A DNA stretch of 64,000 nucleotides from Anaerolinea sp. (GTDB lineage: Bacteria > Chloroflexota > Anaerolineae > Anaerolineales > Anaerolineaceae): contig DYEC01000019.1 in assembly GCA_020725865.1 (NCBI GenBank), forward strand, positions 62,001 through 126,000. Direction: 5' to 3'. Positions 38,029 to 51,688 of this stretch are shown in pieces. The notes below the pieces were generated by a model that made no database searches, had not been told where the DNA came from, and worked only from the letters and a program-made list of their open reading frames with translations. Within the stretch, counting starts at the first letter, position 1, and each line of letters opens with the position of its first letter. The translations under genes were made by a program, and so were the position numbers.

Positions 38029-39600
38029 ATGAAACGAATCGAAATTTATGACACAACCCTTCGAGATGGCACACAACGCAAAGATATCTCATTATCAGTT
38101 AACGATAAACTGAACATTGCCCGTCGGCTGGACGAGCTTGGTGTGGCTTTCATCGAAGGCGGCTGGCCCGGCTCAAATCCCAAAGATGCCGAATTTTTCA
38201 AGCGCGCTGCCCGCATGACCTGGAAACACGCCCGCATTGCGGCTTTTGGCTCTACCTGCCAGGCGAACAAATCGCCATCCGAAGATGCCAATATTCAGGC
38301 GTTGCTTGAAGCCGAAACGCCTTATTGCACGGTTGTAGGAAAAACTTCCATCCTCCATGTTACCGATGTTCTGCGCACCACGCGCCAGAATAACCTGCGC
38401 ATGATTGAGGAAAGCGTAGCTCATCTGCGTGCGCATGGTCGGCAGGTCATCTACGATGCCGAGCATTTCTTTGATGGATACAAAGAAGATGCCGAATATG
38501 CATTGGCAACGCTGGAAGCTGCAACGCGCGGCGGTGCAGAGACCGCTGTCTTGTGCGATACCAACGGCGGCACAATGCCGTGGGAAATCGCTGAAATTGT
38601 ACGCGTAGTCCGCCAGCGTTTGAACATTCCACTGGGCATTCACGCTCATAACGACAGTGAGTGTGCGGTGGCAAATTCAATTACCGCTGTTAAAGAAGGT
38701 TGTATCCAAGTACAGGGCACCATTAACGGCTATGGGGAGCGCTGCGGCAATGCCAACCTCTGCTCGATTATTCCCAACCTGGAACTTAAGCTGGGCTTGC
38801 AGGCCCTCCCGGAGGGACATCTGGTACAGCTATCCGACATTTCCCGCTATGTTGCCGAAGTCGCCAACCTGACCTATGATGAACACCTTCCTTACGTGGG
38901 CAGAGCTGCGTTCGCCCACAAGGGGGGTATTCATGTAGCTGCTATGCGGCGCAACGAAAGATCATATCAGCATATTGACCCACGCCTGGTCGGTAACCAG
39001 ATGACAGTGGTGGTTTCAGAATTATCTGGGCGCGGCAACCTGCTCAGCAAAGCCGAAGAATACGGTATTCAGATTACCGATGAGGAGCAGGTCAACCGAG
39101 TACTTAAGACCGTGAAGCAACTAGAAGCACAGGGCTTCTCCTTTGAGGCGGCTGAGGCTTCGGTAGTCATGATGTTCAAACGACAAGAGAAGGACTACAA
39201 GCCACCCTTTGAACTGATTGATTTTTCAGCAGAAGTAGAGCACCGTCAGGGACGCGGTATTTTTGCCGAGGCAACGGTCAAAGTTCGTGTAGATGGTGAA
39301 GTGATCCACACAGCCGCTGAAGGCAATGGCCCGGTCAACGCCCTCGATCTTGCTTTGCGCAAAGCACTGGTGGCGCGCTACCCCAATATCAATAACTTCC
39401 ATTTGGTGGACTACAAAGTGCGCATTCTAGATGGTCATAATGGGACAAATGCTACCACACGCGTATTAATAGAAACGCAAAACGGCTCAAAAAGCTGGAG
39501 CACCGTTGGTGCCAGCACCAACATCATTGAAGCAAGCTGGCAGGCACTGGTCGATTCGATTGAATACGGACTGCTGGTTTGCAATGACTATCAGGAGTAA
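38029..39600 (+). CDS. cimA: (R)-citramalate synthase
   Basis: Condenses pyruvate and acetyl-CoA to citramalate, giving 2-ketobutyrate for isoleucine without threonine; 523 aa. It begins [20 protein letters not shown] and has [11 protein letters not shown], which separates the CimA group from LeuA. Metal site is [14 protein letters not shown], then [13 protein letters not shown]. The C-terminal LeuA-type regulatory domain contains [16 protein letters not shown]. Placement among leuCD and leuB, whose products catalyse the next steps, supports the assignment. The ribosome site is weak (GGGA), probably coupled to leuD. Confidence 0.94.
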
Positions 39601-39610
39601 GGACAGTTTC

Positions 39611-40678
39611 ATGAAAGCCAACATCGTACTTTTGCCGGGTGACGGCATTGGTCCAGAGGTCGTCGCTTCTGCCCGCCGAACATTGGAAGCCATCGCCCAA
39701 TTATTCCATCATCAATTTGTTTTCAGTGAATATTTGATTGGCGGGTGTTCCATCGATACCTATGGTATAGCCCTGACTGATGAAGCGCTGGAAGCCTGCC
39801 GGGCAGCAGATGCCGTCCTGCTGGGCGCGGTGGGCGGCCCAAAATGGGATGACCCCACCGCCCCCGTTAGACCCGAACAAGGCTTATTAGCATTGCGCAA
39901 AGGGTTAGGTGTCTTTGCAAACCTGCGGCCGGTGAAGGTTTACCCAAGCCTGATCAGCGCTTCTCCGCTCAAGCCAGAGAAATTACAGGGAGTGGATCTG
40001 ATCGTCGTGCGCGAGCTTACCGGTGGGCTGTATTTTGGTCAGCCCAAAGGACGCAGCCGAACGACAGATGGGCGTGAGCGAGCAGTGGATACCCTCGAAT
40101 ACCATGAAGACGAAATCGAACGCATTGTACGTATGGCATTTCAATTGGCGCAGTCGCGTCACCAGAAAGTAACCTCGGTGGACAAAGCTAACGTACTGGA
40201 ATCCTCACGGCTCTGGCGTCAGGTTGCCAATCGTGTTGCACAGGAATTTCCACAGGTCAGGCTGGAACACATGCTGGTGGATACTGCGGCTATGCGGTTG
40301 GTTTCGAACCCGGCAGGGTTTGATGTCATTGTTACCGAAAACATGTTTGGTGACATCCTGACCGACGAAGCCGCTGTCTTGAGCGGCTCAATGGGTGTGT
40401 TACCTTCAGCCTCACTAGGTACTGATGGCCCCGGACTTTATGAACCGATTCATGGTTCAGCTCCAGACATTGCCGGCAAAGGTATTGCCAACCCGATTGG
40501 TACAATTCTGAGTGCCGCTTTTCTGCTGAGGTATTCTTTAAAGCTGGAAGAAGAAGCGCGGCAACTCGAGGTAGCGGTCGAAAAAGCTATTGACATGGGA
40601 CAGACAACGGTTGACCTGGGTGGGACTTACACAACATCGCAGGTGACCGATGCCATTATTCACCATCTTTTACACTGA
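39611..40678 (+). CDS. leuB: 3-isopropylmalate/3-methylmalate dehydrogenase
   Basis: NAD-dependent beta-decarboxylating dehydrogenase, 355 aa, acting on isopropylmalate and, with CimA present, probably also 3-methylmalate. Seen: [13 protein letters not shown] at the start, GAVGGPKWD, the substrate Arg region [32 protein letters not shown], and [28 protein letters not shown] (Mg and cofactor site). AGGA lies 8 bases upstream. The ATG at 39611 directly begins the conserved Rossmann-like strand. Confidence 0.96.
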
Positions 40679-40690
40679 GGAGTTGCTCTT

Positions 40691-41614
40691 ATGGGAATAG
40701 AATCAAAGTACATCTGGATGAACGGTCAGCTTGTTGAATACGAAAAAGCGACTGTGCACTTCCTGAACACCGCCCTGCACTACGGGCTGGGGGTGTTTGA
40801 GGGGATACGCTGTTATAGCACCGAGCGCGGACCGGCGGTTTTCCGCCTGCGCGAACATATGGAACGGCTGGTTAATTCAGCGAAGATTCTCGGCTTCCGC
40901 GACCTGCCTTATAACGTCAATGAGTTGATGGAAGCGACTAAAGAAACCATCCGTGCGAATGGATTTCAAGCCTGCTATATTCGACCACTCATCTATCATC
41001 ACAGCCCCAATCCCAACCTTAACCTTGACAGCGGGTATCCCATGGTTGGAATTGCCGCATGGGAGTGGGGTGCCTATCTGGGGGATGAAGCCATGGAAAA
41101 GGGTATCCGTGCCAATATTGCCTCTTTCACCCGCCACCACGTCAACATCTCGATGACCAAAGCCAAAATCACAGGAAATTATTCCAATAGCGTGCTGGCA
41201 AAGACTGAATCAGCACGTCTTGGCTTTGACGAAGCAATCATGCTTGATCCGCAAGGCTACGTAGCAGAATGTACAGGAGAAAACCTGTTCCTGGTGAGGC
41301 GAGGCGTGGTATATTCCCCGCACACCGCCGCAATTTTGGAAGGCATCACGCGGGACTCGGTTATCGTCCTGGCGAAAGACATGGGCTACGAGGTCAGGGA
41401 AGAGCCCATCGGGCGCGACCAGCTTTACATCGCCGACGAGGTGTTCGTCACCGGTACCGCCGCAGAATTGGTAGCTGTCACCGAAATTGACTTTCGCGTC
41501 ATCGGTAGCGGCAAAATGGGGCCTGTTACCCGTAGCATCCAAAAAGCCTTTCACGAAACCGTGCGAGGCAAACACCCGCGCTCAGCGGAATGGCTGGATT
41601 ACGTCAATCCATAA
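40691..41614 (+). CDS. ilvE: Branched-chain amino-acid aminotransferase
   Basis: PLP-dependent class IV transaminase, 307 aa, performing the final step to Val, Leu and Ile. The N-terminal block is HYGLGVFEGIRCY, the PLP Lys lies in SMTKAKITGNY, and GYVAECTGENLFLVRRG binds the cofactor. The C-terminal FVTGTAAELVAVTEID block is typical of BCAT rather than D-amino-acid transaminases. GAGG lies upstream. Last gene of the operon, closed by a strong terminator. Confidence 0.96.
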   Translation: MGIESKYIWMNGQLVEYEKATVHFLNTALHYGLGVFEGIRCYSTERGPAVFRLREHMERLVNSAKILGFRDLPYNVNELMEATKETIRANGFQACYIRPLIYHHSPNPNLNLDSGYPMVGIAAWEWGAYLGDEAMEKGIRANIASFTRHHVNISMTKAKITGNYSNSVLAKTESARLGFDEAIMLDPQGYVAECTGENLFLVRRGVVYSPHTAAILEGITRDSVIVLAKDMGYEVREEPIGRDQLYIADEVFVTGTAAELVAVTEIDFRVIGSGKMGPVTRSIQKAFHETVRGKHPRSAEWLDYVNP

Positions 41615-41639
41615 CCTCGAGCCATGCTGGCTTTCCTAC

Positions 41640-41670
41640 CCGCCCGCTTCATCTCCGGGCGGTTTTTTTT
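41640..41670 (+). terminator. Terminator of the ilv-leu operon
   Basis: CCGCCCG 41640-41646 pairs with CGGGCGG 41656-41662 over a 9-base loop, followed by eight T (41663-41670). Confidence 0.9.
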
Positions 41671-41702
41671 CGATGGTAAATTTATAGGATTGATTTCTCT
41701 GC

Positions 41703-41708
41703 TATAAT
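41703..41708 (+). promoter_or_regulatory. -10 box of the degV gene
   Basis: Perfect TATAAT 29 bases before the ATG; no convincing -35 is seen. A ribosome site GAGG is 7 bases before the start. Confidence 0.45.
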
Positions 41709-41736
41709 CAAAAAAAGACCTATCCGAGGACTGCCA

Positions 41737-42594
41737 ATGAGTGCTTACGATGTTGAGTTGATTACTGATTCCACCTGTGACATTCCTAAAGAGCTAATTG
41801 AGCAGTATGGCATTGAGGTGTTATCGCACTTTGTTATCTGGGGAGAAGAACAGTACCGCGACCGGGTAAGCATCTCGCCGCAGGAATTTTACGAGCGTCT
41901 AAAAACAGACCCCCGCTGGCCTACAACCGCTGCCATCTCCACCCCGGATTTTGTCAAAGCTTTCCTGGAAGCCAAGGCGCGCGGTGCAAAACAGGTTCTG
42001 GCAATTCTGATTTCCAGTGCCATGAGCCGTGCTTTTGAATCGGCACAGCAAGCGGCAAAAGAGGTGGACATCCCTGTCTATCTGGTAGATGCCAAAGGTC
42101 CAACAATGAGCGTAGGCTGGCAGGTGCTGGCTGCGGCACGCGTCCGCGAGGCAGGCGGTAAACTTGCCGATATGGTCGCTGCCGCAGATGCTGTGCGCAA
42201 ACGCCTGGTACAATTTGTGCTGATGGATAGCTTGGAATATCTGGCACGCGGCGGGCGTATTGGCAATGCGAAACGCTGGATTGGCACCGTGCTGCAAATC
42301 AAACCGCTGGTTTCCATAAATCATGAGAGTGGATTGGTCGAACCTGCTGCTACACCGCGCACCCGCCAGCGCGCCATTGAAACACTCTATCAAATGTTTT
42401 TTGAACGCTTGGACGTCACTCGTCCGCTACACATCGCCGTATTGCACGGCAATGCTCTGGAAGCAGCCCAGCAGCTTGCCAAACGCATCCAGAATGAATT
42501 TCACCCGCTCGAATTGCTCATCAATATCACCGGACCAGTCCTGGGCATCAACACCGGACCTGGCGCATTGGCATTATGCGGATACAATGAGTAA
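41737..42594 (+). CDS. DegV family fatty-acid-binding protein
   Basis: DegV-fold protein, 285 aa. The family binds long-chain fatty acids and can act as FakB, presenting fatty acid to the FakA kinase for phospholipid synthesis; no fakA is visible here. Seen: ITDSTCDIPKEL at the N-terminus, TAAISTPDFVKAF and the LISSAMSRAFESAQQAA loop, VDAKGPTMSVGW, and the LEYLARGGRIG motif near the ligand pocket. The C-terminus ends GPVLGINTGPGALAL, as usual. Confidence 0.93.
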   Translation: MSAYDVELITDSTCDIPKELIEQYGIEVLSHFVIWGEEQYRDRVSISPQEFYERLKTDPRWPTTAAISTPDFVKAFLEAKARGAKQVLAILISSAMSRAFESAQQAAKEVDIPVYLVDAKGPTMSVGWQVLAAARVREAGGKLADMVAAADAVRKRLVQFVLMDSLEYLARGGRIGNAKRWIGTVLQIKPLVSINHESGLVEPAATPRTRQRAIETLYQMFFERLDVTRPLHIAVLHGNALEAAQQLAKRIQNEFHPLELLINITGPVLGINTGPGALALCGYNE

Positions 42595-44267: not shown

Positions 44268-45875
44268 TCAGAGGTGCTTTAGCATATACAATTCACCCAT
44301 ATGGAAACCACGCGCTGCATAATACCTGCGCGTTCCAACAGCCGCAATTACCGCTAAACGGCGAAAACCAGCCGCGCGGGCAAGCTCTTCCGCTTTCTGA
44401 AGGAGTTGACTGCCAAGACCAGCATGTTGTGCCACGCCCGGTTCTTCTTCTCCGACGCGTAGCGACTGGCCATAAATATGTACTTCGCGTACCAGCGCCG
44501 CGCCACTCAGTTCCTCGATACCCGTCTTCAGCGCGTTGGATTCAGGCAGTGAAAGGCGCAGATAGCCGGCTATGCGATCCTCTGGGGTGACAAACTGCAG
44601 GAAGTGTTCCTCAGCCATCTTCGGATGATAGACAAAATCTTGCAGTTCCAGCCTTTCAGTAGAAATTTTCTGATTGCGTACCTCGCGGCAGCGAATGCAA
44701 CGGCAACGCTGTCCGCGCCGCGTCAATTCTACCAGTACATCTTGACGCAAACTGGTGCGTTTGTTGCCTGCCACTACATGTGTTGAAGGAATATCGCGAA
44801 TAACCCGGTTCACCCGACAATACTCCGGGATGGTTGGCTTCAAGTCAGCAATCAACTTGATCAGCTCTTCAGTCGAATAGGGATGATATTCGCCATTTTT
44901 CCAATGTTGATACAGCACGGTACCTTCTAGAAGCTGGGTTGGGTAGATTTTGATTTCATCTGGGCAAAACCCCAATCCATCTTGCGCCTCAAGCCAGAGT
45001 CGGGCAAAATCTTTGCGGTCTGATTCGGGCGTGGCACCCAGTAGATTGGGCATCCAGTGCAATACAATTTTGAAACCCGCTGCGCGTAAGCGTGTCACTG
45101 CTTCTAATGCCTGTTGCACCGTATGCCCGCGCCGGTTCAGCTCCAGAATCTGGTCATCCAAACTCTGTACACCCATCTGCACTTTGGTCACTCCCAGCCG
45201 CCGCAGCCATTCCAGCTCTAGTAAATTAATTTCGTCTGGCCGCGTCTCAATCACAAGTCCAACGTTACGGTGAGGAGCAGTTTCATTCCGCTGATGAGCC
45301 TCTGTCAACGTTTTGCTATCCACCCCATTCATGGCATCGAAACAACGCCGCACAAACCACTCCTGATATTGACGCGGATATGCCGACCACGTCCCGCCCA
45401 AAATGAGTAATTCAATCTTATCGGTCGGGTGCCCGACGGCATGGTAGGATTCCAATCGGGTACGTACCTGCAAATAGGGATCAAACTGGTTTTGAAAAGC
45501 CCGGGCTGCTCCCGGTTCATCCGGCAAATAACTCTTGGGCATGCGTATATCTTCCGGGCAAAAGATGCATTCCCCAGGACAGGCAGCTGGTTTGGTCAGC
45601 ACCGTGACCGTCGTTACTCCCGAGAGGGTGCGCACTGGCTTCATCCGGATACGCGCCAGCAGTGCAGTGTCTTCTTCCCACTCACCACTCTCAACGAGCC
45701 CGCGATAGGCTGCCACCAGCACATGCTTGGCGATATGACCTCCGCCGGGTAAGGGGTGCCGGCGGATCGCCTGAAGCGCATCTTCACCACGGCGCACTTC
45801 TTCCAGCACTACCCGCGCCACTGCCAGCAATTCGTCAGAGTATTGTTTCGACTTCAACCAGTTTTCCACATCCAT
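44268..45875 (-). CDS. Elp3-family radical SAM/acetyltransferase (tRNA wobble U34 modification)
   Basis: Bacterial Elongator protein 3 homologue, 535 aa, the catalytic enzyme that makes 5-carboxymethyluridine (cm5U34) on tRNA using SAM and acetyl-CoA. The N-terminal tRNA-binding helices are followed by KPVRTLSGVTTVTVLTKP and the radical-SAM Cys triplet CPGECIFC (Cys99, 103 and 106), then KSYLPDEPGAARA and FDPYLQ as in all Elp3. The zinc-type segment CRCIRCREV precedes the GNAT domain (about 440-535) with GLGSQLLQKAEELARAAG and VGTRRYYAARGF. The ATG at 45875 has AGGA 10 bases upstream; a GTG at 45893 is an alternative. Divergent from a Trm9-like methyltransferase gene. Confidence 0.93.
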   Translation of the reverse strand: MDVENWLKSKQYSDELLAVARVVLEEVRRGEDALQAIRRHPLPGGGHIAKHVLVAAYRGLVESGEWEEDTALLARIRMKPVRTLSGVTTVTVLTKPAACPGECIFCPEDIRMPKSYLPDEPGAARAFQNQFDPYLQVRTRLESYHAVGHPTDKIELLILGGTWSAYPRQYQEWFVRRCFDAMNGVDSKTLTEAHQRNETAPHRNVGLVIETRPDEINLLELEWLRRLGVTKVQMGVQSLDDQILELNRRGHTVQQALEAVTRLRAAGFKIVLHWMPNLLGATPESDRKDFARLWLEAQDGLGFCPDEIKIYPTQLLEGTVLYQHWKNGEYHPYSTEELIKLIADLKPTIPEYCRVNRVIRDIPSTHVVAGNKRTSLRQDVLVELTRRGQRCRCIRCREVRNQKISTERLELQDFVYHPKMAEEHFLQFVTPEDRIAGYLRLSLPESNALKTGIEELSGAALVREVHIYGQSLRVGEEEPGVAQHAGLGSQLLQKAEELARAAGFRRLAVIAAVGTRRYYAARGFHMGELYMLKHL

Positions 45876-45954
45876 AGCATCGAATTCCTGCACTACCAGT
45901 AAACATTACAAAAACGCACAGGCAACCAATTTTCTAGACAAGCCCCAGAAACGA

Positions 45955-45960
45955 TATAAT
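45955..45960 (+). promoter_or_regulatory. -10 box of the methyltransferase gene (leaderless)
   Basis: TATAAT ends 7 bases before the ATG at 45968, placing initiation at the start codon. No ribosome site is present. TAGACA at 45934-45939 may be a -35 with a short 15-base spacer. Confidence 0.55.
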
Positions 45961-45967
45961 ACACAAT

Positions 45968-46726
45968 ATGCAGATAGAAACCATCCAAAAACTTCTGGAG
46001 CTTAATCGTCAATTCTACCGCGATTTTGCAGCTGCGTTTGCCGCAACGCGCCGCCGTATCCAGCCGGGGGTGCGACGTATTCTGAATATGCTCCCATCGG
46101 GGGGAAATTGGCTGGACCTGGGTTGTGGTTCGGGCGCGCTGGCAATAGAGTGGATCAGATGCGGTCGTTCGGGTTCTTACACCGGTCTGGATTTCAGCGC
46201 CGAATTGCTACAAGAAGCCCAAAACAGTCTGGAAGGGCTTGCAACGCCAGGTTTACGGATTCGCTTCATTCAAGCAGACCTCACAGATAGCAACTGGATG
46301 AGGCTATTAAGTCCGCCTGACCATTGGGATGGTGTTCTGGCATTTGCAGTTTTCCATCATATCCCTAGCAGCGCCCTGCGCCGGAAAATACTTAATCAGG
46401 TGCACACCCTGCTCAAACCCGGCGGCTGTTTAATCCATTCGGAATGGCAATTCCATCATAGTCCGCGCCTGCTGAAGCGCGTTTTACCCTGGCAAACTAT
46501 TGGCCTGGTTTCCAGCGATCTTGAAGAAGGTGATTACTTGCTGGACTGGCGGTATAACCTACCAGGCCACCCTGCCAAGCGCGGGTTTCGCTATATACAT
46601 CTTTTCAGCCGGCAAGAATTAGCTGGATTAGCCAACGAGTGCGGCTTTCAGATCATCGAGGAATTCGAGTCAGATGGCGAGGGGGGAAAACTGGGACTGT
46701 ATCAAATCTGGCAGTCCAGCTCTTGA
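45968..46726 (+). CDS. Trm9/ALKBH8-like class I SAM methyltransferase
   Basis: SAM-dependent methyltransferase, 252 aa. The N-terminus LNRQFYRDFAAAFAATRRR resembles the Trm9/ALKBH8 entry motif (xYNEIAxHFSxTR). SAM motif I is WLDLGCGSGALAIEW; the later AFAVFHHIPSSALRRKILNQV and LLKPGGCLIHSEWQF blocks again match Trm9 (IAVxHH, LRxGGxALIYxWAxE). The end FRYIHLFSRQELAGLANECGF parallels YRYYHLxREGEL. In eukaryotes Trm9 methylates the cm5U made by Elp3 to mcm5U; here the gene stands back to back with elp3. The methyltransferase call is firm; the tRNA role is inference from motifs and context. Confidence 0.78.
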   Translation: MQIETIQKLLELNRQFYRDFAAAFAATRRRIQPGVRRILNMLPSGGNWLDLGCGSGALAIEWIRCGRSGSYTGLDFSAELLQEAQNSLEGLATPGLRIRFIQADLTDSNWMRLLSPPDHWDGVLAFAVFHHIPSSALRRKILNQVHTLLKPGGCLIHSEWQFHHSPRLLKRVLPWQTIGLVSSDLEEGDYLLDWRYNLPGHPAKRGFRYIHLFSRQELAGLANECGFQIIEEFESDGEGGKLGLYQIWQSSS

Positions 46727-47784: not shown

Positions 47785-48765
47785 ATGGCCCAGGATCGCT
47801 TTGGTCGGCAGATTCATTATTTGCGCATCTCCCTGACGGATCACTGCAATCTGCGCTGCCTGTACTGTATGCCAGAGCAGATGATTTTCCGCCCCAATCA
47901 TGAAATGTTGCAGGATCAAGAGTTGTTACTACTGGTGCGGATCTTTGCAGATTTGGGGTTCGATAAAATCCGCCTGACGGGCGGCGAACCCACCATCCGC
48001 GCCAATATTGTTGAACTGGTGCGCTCCATTGCAGCTACACCCGGAATCGAAAAACTCACCATGACTACCAACGGTGTATTGCTGGGCAAGCTGGCTGCGC
48101 CGCTCAAAGCCGCCGGCCTGCAACGGGTCAATATTTCGCTGGATACGCTTAACCCGCAGCATTTCCGGACACTGACCCGTTGGGGGACTTTCGAACAGGT
48201 CTGGGAAGGCATTCGCGCGGCTGAGTCGGCGGGACTGATCCCGATTAAGATTAATACAGTGGTTGTGCGCGGTTATAACGATATGGATGTGGTTGACCTG
48301 GCACGTCTAACACTCGAGCATCCCTGGCAGGTGCGATTTATCGAGATGATGCCCTTTGGCGGCGTTACAGAACTGCAACAAAGCCATGTTGTCAGCATGA
48401 CAGAGGTGCTGGCGCGTATTGAGTCGGCACTGGGTTCGCTCGAGGTCGCCAATGATGGCAAACTGGACGGTGAAGCACGTTTATTCCGCGTGCCTGGAGC
48501 AGCAGGCGAAATCGGCTTTATTTCCTCAGTCACGGCGCCTTTCTGTGCAGCCTGTACACGTGCCCGTCTGACTGCTGACGGCAAACTGCGACTGTGTCTG
48601 TTACGTCCCAAGGAAGTGGACTTGCTCGCACCTTTGCGTCAAGGCGCAAATCTGGAAGAATTGAAAAAACTCATACTGGACGGCGTCTGGAATAAACCTT
48701 GGGGGCATGGTCTTGCCCAGGGTGAAATCGCTACCAACCGCACGATGAGCGAAATCGGTGGATAA
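47785..48765 (+). CDS. moaA: GTP 3',8-cyclase (molybdenum cofactor step 1)
   Basis: Radical SAM enzyme converting GTP to the 3',8-cyclised intermediate of molybdopterin synthesis, 326 aa. The N-terminal cluster motif is CNLRCLYC (Cys21, 25 and 28), with RLTGGEP for SAM. The C-terminal cluster has CAACTRARLTADGKLRLC (Cys254, 257 and 271). The C-terminus ends in SEIGG, the essential Gly-Gly tail. GAGG precedes the ATG. No moaC, moaE or other cofactor gene is in the window. Confidence 0.96.
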   Translation: MAQDRFGRQIHYLRISLTDHCNLRCLYCMPEQMIFRPNHEMLQDQELLLLVRIFADLGFDKIRLTGGEPTIRANIVELVRSIAATPGIEKLTMTTNGVLLGKLAAPLKAAGLQRVNISLDTLNPQHFRTLTRWGTFEQVWEGIRAAESAGLIPIKINTVVVRGYNDMDVVDLARLTLEHPWQVRFIEMMPFGGVTELQQSHVVSMTEVLARIESALGSLEVANDGKLDGEARLFRVPGAAGEIGFISSVTAPFCAACTRARLTADGKLRLCLLRPKEVDLLAPLRQGANLEELKKLILDGVWNKPWGHGLAQGEIATNRTMSEIGG

Positions 48766-48773
48766 AAGCCCGC

Positions 48774-48802
48774 TTGTCAGCCACACATAGCATGAGTACA
48801 AT
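48774..48802 (+). promoter_or_regulatory. Promoter of the kinase-regulator pair (leaderless)
   Basis: TTGTCA (48774-48779) and TACAAT (48797-48802) with a 17-base spacer. Initiation near 48809 would put the ATG at 48811 at or near the 5' end; no ribosome site is present. Confidence 0.6.
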
Positions 48803-48810
48803 CAAGATAT

Positions 48811-51003
48811 ATGGAGAACACTGCGCAGTTGCCGCGCCCAGTGAGCCAGTTGTTACTGCCAGGCATGGTCTCTTTTATGGGTCTGTATCTGGCTTGGCTC
48901 TTTTGGGGACGAGAAGACCCATCAGAACGCCTCCTTGCAGGCAACATGACCCTCTTATTCACTGCACTGGTCGTCCTCGCATTGGCTCTGTGGACGCGGG
49001 AAAGAATTACAGGCATTGGATTACGTCGCGCGTGGAACTGGCTATGTACCGGGCTGGTTCTGTGGGCACTGGGTGACCTGATACGCCTTCTGTTGATAAT
49101 GATACAACCAACCCGCAGTCTGCTGTTCTCGTCTTTTGACCTACTTTCTCTGTTCGGGAGCATCCCCTTTTGTATTGGTTTGATACTCTATCCACGCCCA
49201 CCCCGCCCGCGCTGGGGGCGGTTGCCTCTGTTCTTCGATACCACACTGGTCGCCGCCTCAACCCTGACCATGATCTGGCTGGTGGTGCTTCGACCAGCAT
49301 CGCTGGCACTCGGTGTTATGCAATCGGGTAGTTTCCTAGTGTTACTTTATCCGATTGCAGACCTTCTGATCGCACTGGTGCTACTCAACCTGTTTTTGCT
49401 TTCCGACCCACGCCAAACAACAATCTCCTTCCTCTGGATCACGTTGGGTGTGCTGGCTTATTCATTCAGCGATCTCATCTATGCCGCTTTGCTGGCAGGG
49501 AGCGGTTACCAGCCCGGCGTTCCGCTGGATGCCGGGTGGGTTCTGGGAGATTTGTTCCTTTTTGGGGGAATTGCATGGCAATTGAAGGTTCCATCCACCC
49601 CATCCAAAATATGGCAACAGCTGCTGGTGAATTTACAGAGAGCTGCACCGCTGATCGCCACGCTGGTTGTCGGCTGGTACACGCTACTCAACTGGCAATT
49701 GGGTGGACAACTCGAACCATTAGGTCTCTGGATGACCATCATCCTGAGTCTGGGACTGGTTGCCCGTCAGGGTGTCGTCGCCGGCGAACTGGAGATGCAA
49801 AAATACGCCAGTTTGGTAAACAGTGTAGCAGAACCCGCTTTCGTCTGCGATGCCCAAGGACGATTGCAACTGGTCAACCCGGCTCTGCTTGCAGCTACGC
49901 TATACCCGGATGAGACAACCCTGCTTGGTCAGTCATTGCTGTCGTTGCTACACCCGGAACATGAGACTGACCAATTACTACAAAAAGGGCTGATGGGAAG
50001 CTGGTCAGGCGAAGCGCATTTGCGGCGAAAGGATGGAACGCTGCTACCGGTCTTGCTCGCCCTGCGTCCCTTGATGCCCGCTGGCAACAGCCGCCTAGCG
50101 CTGGCTGGTACGGCTCATGACCTGAGCGAGCAAAAACGCCAGCAGGCTGCACTTCAAGCCGCCTACGAGCAGATTGCCGCCGACCGCAACGAACTCGAGA
50201 TACTTAACACTCAACTGGAACAGAAAGTCGCTGAAAAAACTGCTGACCTCCTTCAGGCAATGGAACAACTGGAACGTCAGAACCAGGCGCTGCAACAGCT
50301 TGACCGCCTTAAGTCCGATTTTGTCTCGCTGGTCTCACATGAACTGCGCGCGCCGCTGACCAATATCAGCGGCGGAATCGAAGTACTACTCTCTACAGGT
50401 AGTAAGCTTCCGGAGCAAGCGCGGCACAACTTGGAACTGGTGCAGGGTCAAATCCAGCGTCTGAGCCGTTTTGTGGAAACCATCCTGGATCTTTCAGCGC
50501 TTGATGCCGGCAAACTGCCGCTGTATCTGGCACCAGTCAGTCTGCATGGGGTCGTGTCCACTCTGCAAAATCAGGTTCGGCACCTTCAGGGCGCTGAGCG
50601 AATCCACTGGAACATTCCCACCGATCTCCCTCCTGCCCTAGCAGATGAGCAGGCGTTGACCAGTGTATTGTTTCATTTGCTGGACAATGCACTTAAGTAT
50701 GCTCCCCAGGGTGAAGTTATTGTTCGCGCTGAACTGCAGGATGGACGTTTATATGTGCATGTCGCTGATCAGGGTCCCGGCATTCCGCCGGAAAGCATGC
50801 CCTTCTTGTTTGACCGTTTCTACCGCCTGGAAACCAGCGATTCACAATCCGTGTACGGGCATGGCTTGGGCTTATATATCGTCATGCGGCTGTTAACTGC
50901 GATGGGTGGTCAAATTAAGGTTCAAAATCAGCCGCAAGGCGGCGCCCTCTTTTCCTTCTGGCTACCATGCGCTATCGGTAAAGGAGCAGAGGATGCTTTA
51001 TAA
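48811..51003 (+). CDS. Membrane PAS sensor histidine kinase
   Basis: Sensor kinase, 730 aa. The N-terminal third (about 20-325) has nine or so TM helices in a 7TM/MASE-like input domain of no named family. A PAS domain follows (about 335-445), then a coiled coil (about 450-500), HisKA with His510 (LVSHELRAPL) and HATPase with N-box HLLDNALKYAP, G1 DQGPGIPPE, F-box FLFDRFYRLE and G2 GHGLGLYI. It overlaps the response regulator by 11 bases. Candidate signals are membrane or lipophilic compounds. Confidence 0.92.
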   Translation: MENTAQLPRPVSQLLLPGMVSFMGLYLAWLFWGREDPSERLLAGNMTLLFTALVVLALALWTRERITGIGLRRAWNWLCTGLVLWALGDLIRLLLIMIQPTRSLLFSSFDLLSLFGSIPFCIGLILYPRPPRPRWGRLPLFFDTTLVAASTLTMIWLVVLRPASLALGVMQSGSFLVLLYPIADLLIALVLLNLFLLSDPRQTTISFLWITLGVLAYSFSDLIYAALLAGSGYQPGVPLDAGWVLGDLFLFGGIAWQLKVPSTPSKIWQQLLVNLQRAAPLIATLVVGWYTLLNWQLGGQLEPLGLWMTIILSLGLVARQGVVAGELEMQKYASLVNSVAEPAFVCDAQGRLQLVNPALLAATLYPDETTLLGQSLLSLLHPEHETDQLLQKGLMGSWSGEAHLRRKDGTLLPVLLALRPLMPAGNSRLALAGTAHDLSEQKRQQAALQAAYEQIAADRNELEILNTQLEQKVAEKTADLLQAMEQLERQNQALQQLDRLKSDFVSLVSHELRAPLTNISGGIEVLLSTGSKLPEQARHNLELVQGQIQRLSRFVETILDLSALDAGKLPLYLAPVSLHGVVSTLQNQVRHLQGAERIHWNIPTDLPPALADEQALTSVLFHLLDNALKYAPQGEVIVRAELQDGRLYVHVADQGPGIPPESMPFLFDRFYRLETSDSQSVYGHGLGLYIVMRLLTAMGGQIKVQNQPQGGALFSFWLPCAIGKGAEDAL

Positions 51004-51688
51004 AATCCTGCTTGTGGATGATGATACCACCTTGCTCAAATTCCTGAGAGAATACTTCGAAAACGAGGGCGAATATATTGTTTTGACTGCCACTAGCGGT
51101 ACTGAAGCATTACGCATAGCTTATCGTGACCATCCAGATCTGGTTGTTCTGGATGTGATGATGCCGGGCATGGATGGCTGGGAAGTGACCGCCCGTCTGC
51201 GTGAGCTCTCGGATATTCCTATTATCCTGCTGACCGGCAAAGGTGCCGAAGCAGACAAACTGCGCGGCTTCAGGTTGGGAGTGGATGATTATGTGGTTAA
51301 GCCGTTTAGTTTTGCCGAGCTTTCTGCCCGCATCCAGGCAATCCTGCACCGTGTCAGACGAACATCAGGGATGGTGTCCGATATTATTCCCATTGGAGAA
51401 TTACGAGTGGACTTGAACAAACGCGAAGTGCGGCGCGGGGAGCAGATGGTTGCACTCACCCCTACTGAATTTCGCCTGCTGGAATGTCTGGCACAGCATG
51501 CTGGTCGGGCAGTAGCTGAAAGCGAATTGATTCAATCTGTCTGGAGCGGTACAAACGCCGAGCAACATACCGCTGCTGTACGGCGTTATATCTGGCTACT
51601 ACGCCAGAAAATCGAACCCGACCCGGCAAATCCCAAATATCTGTTGACCGTCAGAGGCTACGGCTACCGCCTGGAAGTAGGCGAATAA
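50993..51688 (+). CDS. OmpR-family response regulator
   Basis: Response regulator, 231 aa, partner of the kinase upstream. The receiver has ILLVDDDTTLL, phosphoacceptor Asp54 (VVLDVMMPGMDG), LLTGKG and VVKPFSF. The winged-helix DNA-binding domain has LTPTEFRLLECLAQHAGR and TAAVRRYIWLLRQKIE. The ATG at 50993 lies inside the kinase 3' end with AAAGGAG upstream. It converges on the orphan peptide-binding lipoprotein gene with only 3 bases between. Confidence 0.95.
   Translation: MLYKILLVDDDTTLLKFLREYFENEGEYIVLTATSGTEALRIAYRDHPDLVVLDVMMPGMDGWEVTARLRELSDIPIILLTGKGAEADKLRGFRLGVDDYVVKPFSFAELSARIQAILHRVRRTSGMVSDIIPIGELRVDLNKREVRRGEQMVALTPTEFRLLECLAQHAGRAVAESELIQSVWSGTNAEQHTAAVRRYIWLLRQKIEPDPANPKYLLTVRGYGYRLEVGE

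Follow-up and report, generated by a model that had tools for sequence, protein, structure and literature searches.

Organization of the elp3-methyltransferase locus

The window, i.e. the whole analysed stretch of 64,000 nucleotides from Anaerolinea sp., carries an elp3 gene on the minus strand at positions 44268..45875, with an ATG start codon at 45875 and the stop at 44268; an alternative GTG start codon is located 18 bp upstream and would lengthen the protein from 535 to 541 aa. The gene product is a predicted radical SAM and GNAT tRNA U34 carboxymethylase, which matched TIGR01211 with an E-value of 1.2e-144 and with 482.6 bits passed the curated cut-off of 350. Pfam assigned the domains PF04055 (radical SAM), PF16199 (Radical_SAM_C) and PF00583 (GNAT), and in a phmmer comparison residues 79-535 aligned with Elp3 of D. 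mccartyi (5l7j) at an E-value of 1.1e-117. The [4Fe-4S] radical SAM motif C99-x3-C103-x2-C106 (45558..45581, minus strand) reads CPGECIFC and aligns with CPGKCIYC of the D. mccartyi enzyme, the zinc-site cysteines C391, C393 and C396 (CRCIRC; 44688..44705, minus strand) are identical in 5l7j, and the GNAT/KAT (acetyl-CoA) domain at approximately residues 422-535 (44271..44612, minus strand) was recognized by PF00583 and by the 5l7j alignment, which continues through the YMxKHL end. As judged from its sequence, the Elp3 of the window is intact and full-length.

The divergent intergenic region of 92 bp (45876..45967), presumed to be a shared promoter region, separates elp3 from a plus-strand gene for a Trm9-like class I SAM methyltransferase of 252 aa (45968..46726). 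Pfam and NCBIfam returned matches to generic methyltransferase domains only (PF13489 with 81.7 bits, PF13649); the class I fold is supported by Pfam and by an AF2 model with a pLDDT of 93.8, and the SAM-binding motif I LDLGCGSG is encoded at 46112..46135 (plus strand). Three further motifs, compared with yeast Trm9, are encoded on the plus strand: FAATR (residues 24-28; 46037..46051), in which R28 corresponds to Trm9 R29, a residue involved in tRNA/cm5U binding (PMC5372719) and invariant in all four groups of sequences; VFHH (residues 128-131; 46349..46360), in which H130/H131 correspond to H115/H116; and RYIHLFSRQEL (residues 208-218; 46589..46621), the counterpart of RYYHLYREGEL in Trm9, with I210 at the position of Y243. 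In the AF2 secondary structure, a predicted two-stranded lid (46532..46600, plus strand) is formed by strands 189-196 and 204-211 and carries R208, the equivalent of Trm9 R241; the assignment was made by matching these strands to the description of the lid in PMC5372719. The preliminary description of this DNA had reported a full Elp3 divergent from a methyltransferase across 92 bases, with FxxTR, VxHH and RYxHLxxxxEL motifs in the latter, and the coordinates, domains, TIGR01211 match and motif positions bear this out.

No tRNA genes were found in the 64-kb window. The flanks at 39506-42594 and 47785-51688 were inspected by eye and appear to contain ordinary genes (LeuB-, IlvE-, DegV- and MoaA-like, histidine kinase, response regulator), and no further tRNA-modification gene was seen there adjoining the pair.

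Co-occurrence and linkage of elp3 and the methyltransferase gene

The distribution of both genes was determined in a set of 301 Chloroflexota genomes, 54 with and 247 without Elp3. At a cut-off of E <= 1e-20, relatives of the window methyltransferase were detected in 30 of the 301 genomes, every one of which encodes Elp3. In the class Anaerolineae the methyltransferase was present in 30 of 31 Elp3 genomes and in none of the 10 genomes without Elp3, where the best match was about 1e-13 or weaker compared with 2.7e-103 in the genome of the window. The remaining 23 Elp3 genomes, belonging to Dehalococcoidia and related lineages, are without this family; the ORFs beside their Elp3 genes represent a second methyltransferase family with the motifs SWYxxRHW, HH, RYYHLF and SRNIC, and a profile of this family found all 23 genomes plus one weak match elsewhere. 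Two diverged methyltransferase subfamilies, each travelling with its own Elp3, were thus distinguished, and one or the other is present in 53/54 Elp3 genomes compared with 1/247 of the others (Fisher 7e-57, a value which overstates independence because the genomes are related). The sole Elp3 genome without a detectable Trm9-like methyltransferase is G184 (locus L175), in which MnmE/MnmG are also absent.

The two genes are neighbours in 49 of the 54 Elp3 genomes, divergent each time, and no other orientation occurred within 5 kb. In four Elp3 genomes the pair is not adjacent, with the genes on different contigs in three of them and 641 kb apart in the fourth. A lack of conserved linkage in relatives, which would have spoken against the proposed link, was therefore not observed.

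The divergent arrangement is shown by Patescibacteria independently of Chloroflexota. Elp3 was detected in 87 of 239 Patescibacteria genomes, and at 18 of 30 Patescibacterial Elp3 loci, analysed with about 1.5 kb of flanking sequence, a divergent Trm9-like methyltransferase gene lies within 1.5 kb (L195, L197-L203, L206, L208, L209, L211, L213-L215, L218, L220 and L221). Sixteen of these methyltransferases are complete, and scores ranged from 90 to 204 bits, the two lowest belonging to proteins clipped by the locus ends. Due to its recurrence in 49/54 Chloroflexota genomes and at 18/30 Patescibacterial loci, the divergent pair cannot be attributed to chance. In Omnitrophota an adjacent methyltransferase was seen neither at one Elp3 locus inspected by eye nor at a second locus searched with the profile, and no Trm9 relatives were found in the viral and phage collections.

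Relationship of the methyltransferase to Trm9

In eukaryotes, Elongator makes cm5U34, which is then methylated to mcm5U by Trm9/Trm112. When the profile of the Anaerolineae methyltransferases was compared with all PDB sequences, the best match was Trm9 of Yarrowia (5cm2; E 5e-14), with the next match only 2.6 bits lower; among the five best alignments, that of 5cm2 alone runs through the C-terminal RYYHLY region. The same structure was the top match of the Dehalococcoidia profile (E 4.6e-21) and of the Patescibacterial profile (E 1.5e-27, 99.4 bits), the latter followed after a gap of 21 bits by a match of 78.4 bits that covers the SAM domain only.

For the comparison of individual residues, the Yarrowia Trm9 sequence was taken from the PDB alignments, and for S. 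cerevisiae Trm9 a sequence was used which we take to be the correct one, its R29, H115, R241, Y243 and N271 falling on the published numbers. These five residues are required for tRNA binding and activity of yeast Trm9 (PMC5372719). R29, H116 and R241 (yeast numbering) do not vary in any of the bacterial groups, and 15/16 Anaerolineae proteins have H115; the window protein has all four as R28, H130/H131 and R208. The position of Y243 is occupied by V, I, A or C in Anaerolineae, by Y in 17/17 Dehalococcoidia proteins and by Y in 10/16 Patescibacterial proteins. At the position of N271, where the C-terminal alignment is uncertain, G, A or S was found in 14/16 Anaerolineae proteins and N in Dehalococcoidia and in 14/16 Patescibacterial proteins. 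The proposed assignment to Trm9/ALKBH8 consequently holds in part: the window protein is Trm9-like and tied to a bacterial Elp3, but its naming as Trm9 or ALKBH8 itself is not supported, as Y243 and N271 are not conserved and the trees do not place its family inside Trm9.

Structural comparison returned many class I methyltransferases. With the model of the window protein, Foldseek ranked 5cm2 fifth, with other class I methyltransferases tying, and VIA-align placed METTL6 structures among the highest scores (Z ~21), 5cm2 not being among the best 50 matches listed; the fold therefore does not decide the identity of the enzyme. These observations have to be weighed with regard to the possibility that the methyltransferase acts together with Elp3 on U34 and forms a non-ester product, modifies another atom, or acts on another nucleoside of the anticodon loop, e.g. 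C32 as METTL6/Trm140 do. Such an activity would agree with the high scores of METTL6, a tRNA m3C32 enzyme, and with the lack of conservation in the window family of the two residues by which yeast Trm9 positions cm5U34 (Y243 and N271). It is nevertheless considered unlikely, as the near-perfect tie is to Elp3 and not to tRNA genes in general, the best PDB match of the sequence profiles is Trm9 and not METTL6, and N271 is kept in the Patescibacterial and Dehalococcoidia partners, in the latter together with Y243.

For the window protein, a profile score by itself was not accepted as sufficient proof, because this protein obtained 66.9 bits on a combined Dehalococcoidia and Trm9 profile and was outscored by L183, a generic methyltransferase with 80.7 bits. 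The deciding evidence for its predicted Trm9-like relationship is the bridge formed by the Patescibacterial family. This family matches the window family over the full length (hhalign, 231 columns, E 1.5e-50) and likewise the Dehalococcoidia family (E 7.8e-46). On the Patescibacterial profile the window protein scored 128.9 and yeast Trm9 123.4, compared with a background median of 52 and a maximum of 107; the latter belongs to L183, the sole background sequence overlapping the lowest family members. Moreover, the RYxHL lid motif is absent from 40/40 background methyltransferases.

Phylogenetic trees were calculated with a limited background set and with three Trm9 sequences, two from fungi and one from an archaeon. 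The Dehalococcoidia partners grouped with Trm9 (SH-aLRT 97), as did Dehalococcoidia and Patescibacteria together (SH-aLRT 94). The window family was not placed inside Trm9, but a joint clade was not rejected (p-AU 0.54-0.79), and the tree constrained to unite it with Dehalococcoidia, Trm9 and Patescibacteria exceeded the free tree by 14.8 likelihood units (p-AU 0.79). The comparison with Trm9/ALKBH8 that had been suggested thus joins two of the bacterial families to Trm9 without fixing the exact place of the window family, and a clustering with small-molecule methyltransferases did not occur. The reading that the methyltransferase acts on small molecules or proteins, is unrelated to Elp3 function and merely shares a divergent promoter with elp3 could draw on the purely generic Pfam and NCBIfam domains and on the higher score of L183. 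It is highly improbable in view of the co-occurrence in 53/54 genomes, which extends to genomes with the genes apart, the same arrangement in Patescibacteria, the lid motif missing from the background enzymes and the profile match that covers the Elp3 partners of Patescibacteria over their full length.

Mutual exclusion of Elp3 and MnmE/MnmG

MnmE and MnmG are the usual bacterial enzymes for modification of the wobble uridine at C5 (cmnm5U34/nm5U34), and MnmA is the bacterial U34 thiolase. MnmG (TIGR00136) was detected in 119 of the 301 Chloroflexota genomes, none of them among the 54 with Elp3. MnmE above its curated cut-off was likewise found in 0/54 Elp3 genomes, which contain only shorter matches to the GTPase domain, probably Der; it is present in two Anaerolineae lacking Elp3, the same two that have MnmG. 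The exclusion holds across many families and within the class Anaerolineae, with statistics inflated by relatedness. MnmA is encoded in 52/54 Elp3 genomes, that of the window included. Since the pair was found in Chloroflexota only where MnmE/MnmG are missing, it probably replaces these enzymes there. In the Anaerolineae genomes G032, G120, G144, G198, G247, G261, G268 and G287, Elp3 and MnmE/MnmG are all absent and MnmA is present.

A putative bacterial pathway to mcm5U34

The gene identities, co-occurrence, linkage, absence of MnmE/MnmG, presence of MnmA and family relationship computed here are well accommodated by a bacterial pathway from cm5U34 to mcm5U34, and with MnmA to mcm5s2U34, that replaces MnmE/MnmG, and we regard this as the likely function of the pair. 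The following substrate, product, set of tRNAs and order of steps are the most likely ones. Elp3 would use radical SAM chemistry and acetyl-CoA to make cm5U34 in tRNAs, the Trm9-like methyltransferase would esterify the cm5U34 carboxylate with SAM to yield mcm5U34, and in the tRNAs for Lys, Glu and Gln thiolation by MnmA may then lead to mcm5s2U34. The mcm5s2U34 predicted here would mix archaeal/eukaryotic C5 chemistry with bacterial thiolation.

On balance, the evidence also favours the wider reading that Anaerolineae, Dehalococcoidia and many Patescibacteria use Elp3 and Trm9-like enzymes for their wobble uridines, in Chloroflexota instead of MnmE/MnmG and together with MnmA for mcm5U and mcm5s2U34, and in Dehalococcoidaceae without Trm112. 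The preliminary description had envisaged a two-enzyme pathway without Trm112; of this, the genetic tie of a Trm9-like methyltransferase to Elp3 stands, and independence from Trm112 is not established. The genome of the window encodes a 73-aa Trm112p/YcaR-like zinc knuckle protein on contig C22 (L167:4126-4347), unlinked to elp3, though no small Trm112 ORF was found in 11 Dehalococcoidaceae genomes. The Trm112-like gene sits between LytR-like and VanW-like genes. Trm112-like proteins are widespread in bacteria, with unknown function (PMC5372719).

A merely auxiliary or repair role of the methyltransferase, with cm5U, ncm5U or cnm5U as the main end product of Elp3-made cm5U34, would fit the accumulation of ncm5U in yeast trm9 mutants (PMC3110198), the report of ncm5U from an archaeon (PMC5372719) and the presence of Elp3 without a detectable methyltransferase in G184, but is very improbable given the retention of the methyltransferase in 53/54 Elp3 genomes, which suggests that any cell making cm5U requires this enzyme.

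Comparison with known systems

Elp3-type tRNA modification is thought to be typical of eukaryotes and archaea. The eukaryotic Elongator (Elp1-6) with Trm9-Trm112 or ALKBH8-TRMT112 shares with the bacterial pair the succession of Elp3 and a class I methyltransferase with R29, H115/H116, R241 and, according to the model, a two-stranded lid, and the product mcm5(s2)U34, which is a prediction for the pair. The bacterial system differs in consisting of two adjacent genes, in a window methyltransferase without Y243 and N271, and in its thiolation, for which bacterial MnmA is present instead of Ncs6/Ctu. MnmE/MnmG modify C5 of the same wobble uridine and have the same decoding role, but with other chemistry and other enzymes, and were never found together with Elp3 in one Chloroflexota genome of the set.

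The Elp3 of Dehalococcoides mccartyi (DmcElp3) is a solved bacterial Elp3 from the same phylum and with the same fold. It was studied without a partner, whereas at the Dehalococcoidia loci L032-L052 a D. mccartyi-type elp3 lies divergent from a gene of the second Trm9-like family, in which the five active-site residues of yeast Trm9 are all present and which is the most promising one for experimental work. A partner methyltransferase is not mentioned in the Elp3 literature passages considered, and in the open-licence literature searched, neither a pairing of Elp3 with Trm9 in bacteria nor the exclusion between Elp3 and MnmE/MnmG was found described. A review from 2020 placed Elp3 in one bacterial clade (Dehalococcoides) and described direct evidence of xcm5U34 there as lacking (PMC7663514), another gives mcm5U and mcm5s2U as nucleosides that do not occur in bacteria (PMC7694415), and a review from 2017 stated that no bacterial homologues of Trm112-dependent methyltransferases had been found (PMC5372719). 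Given that both nucleosides are listed as non-bacterial, the pair makes this open question testable: the conserved methyltransferase partner would supply the missing downstream enzyme and names the expected nucleoside, and the pair points to the genomes where MnmE/MnmG have apparently been replaced by the pathway. For studies in vitro, no smaller pathway of the Elongator type may be available, and the pair is also relevant to the question of how old the association between Elp3 and Trm9 is.

Archaea such as Haloferax and Sulfolobus share with these bacteria an Elp3 plus a Trm9 homologue. In S. solfataricus elp3 and the Trm9 homologue are clustered, and the two are predicted to act in Haloferax (PMC2584109); mcm5U34 is documented in H. 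volcanii according to PMC7663514, which cites van Tran 2018. In the archaeal system Trm9 occurs in only a subset of archaea and the thiolase is Tuc1/NcsA, whereas the bacterial pairs are divergent and probably replace MnmE/MnmG. One haloarchaeal Trm9-like sequence was of plasmid origin.
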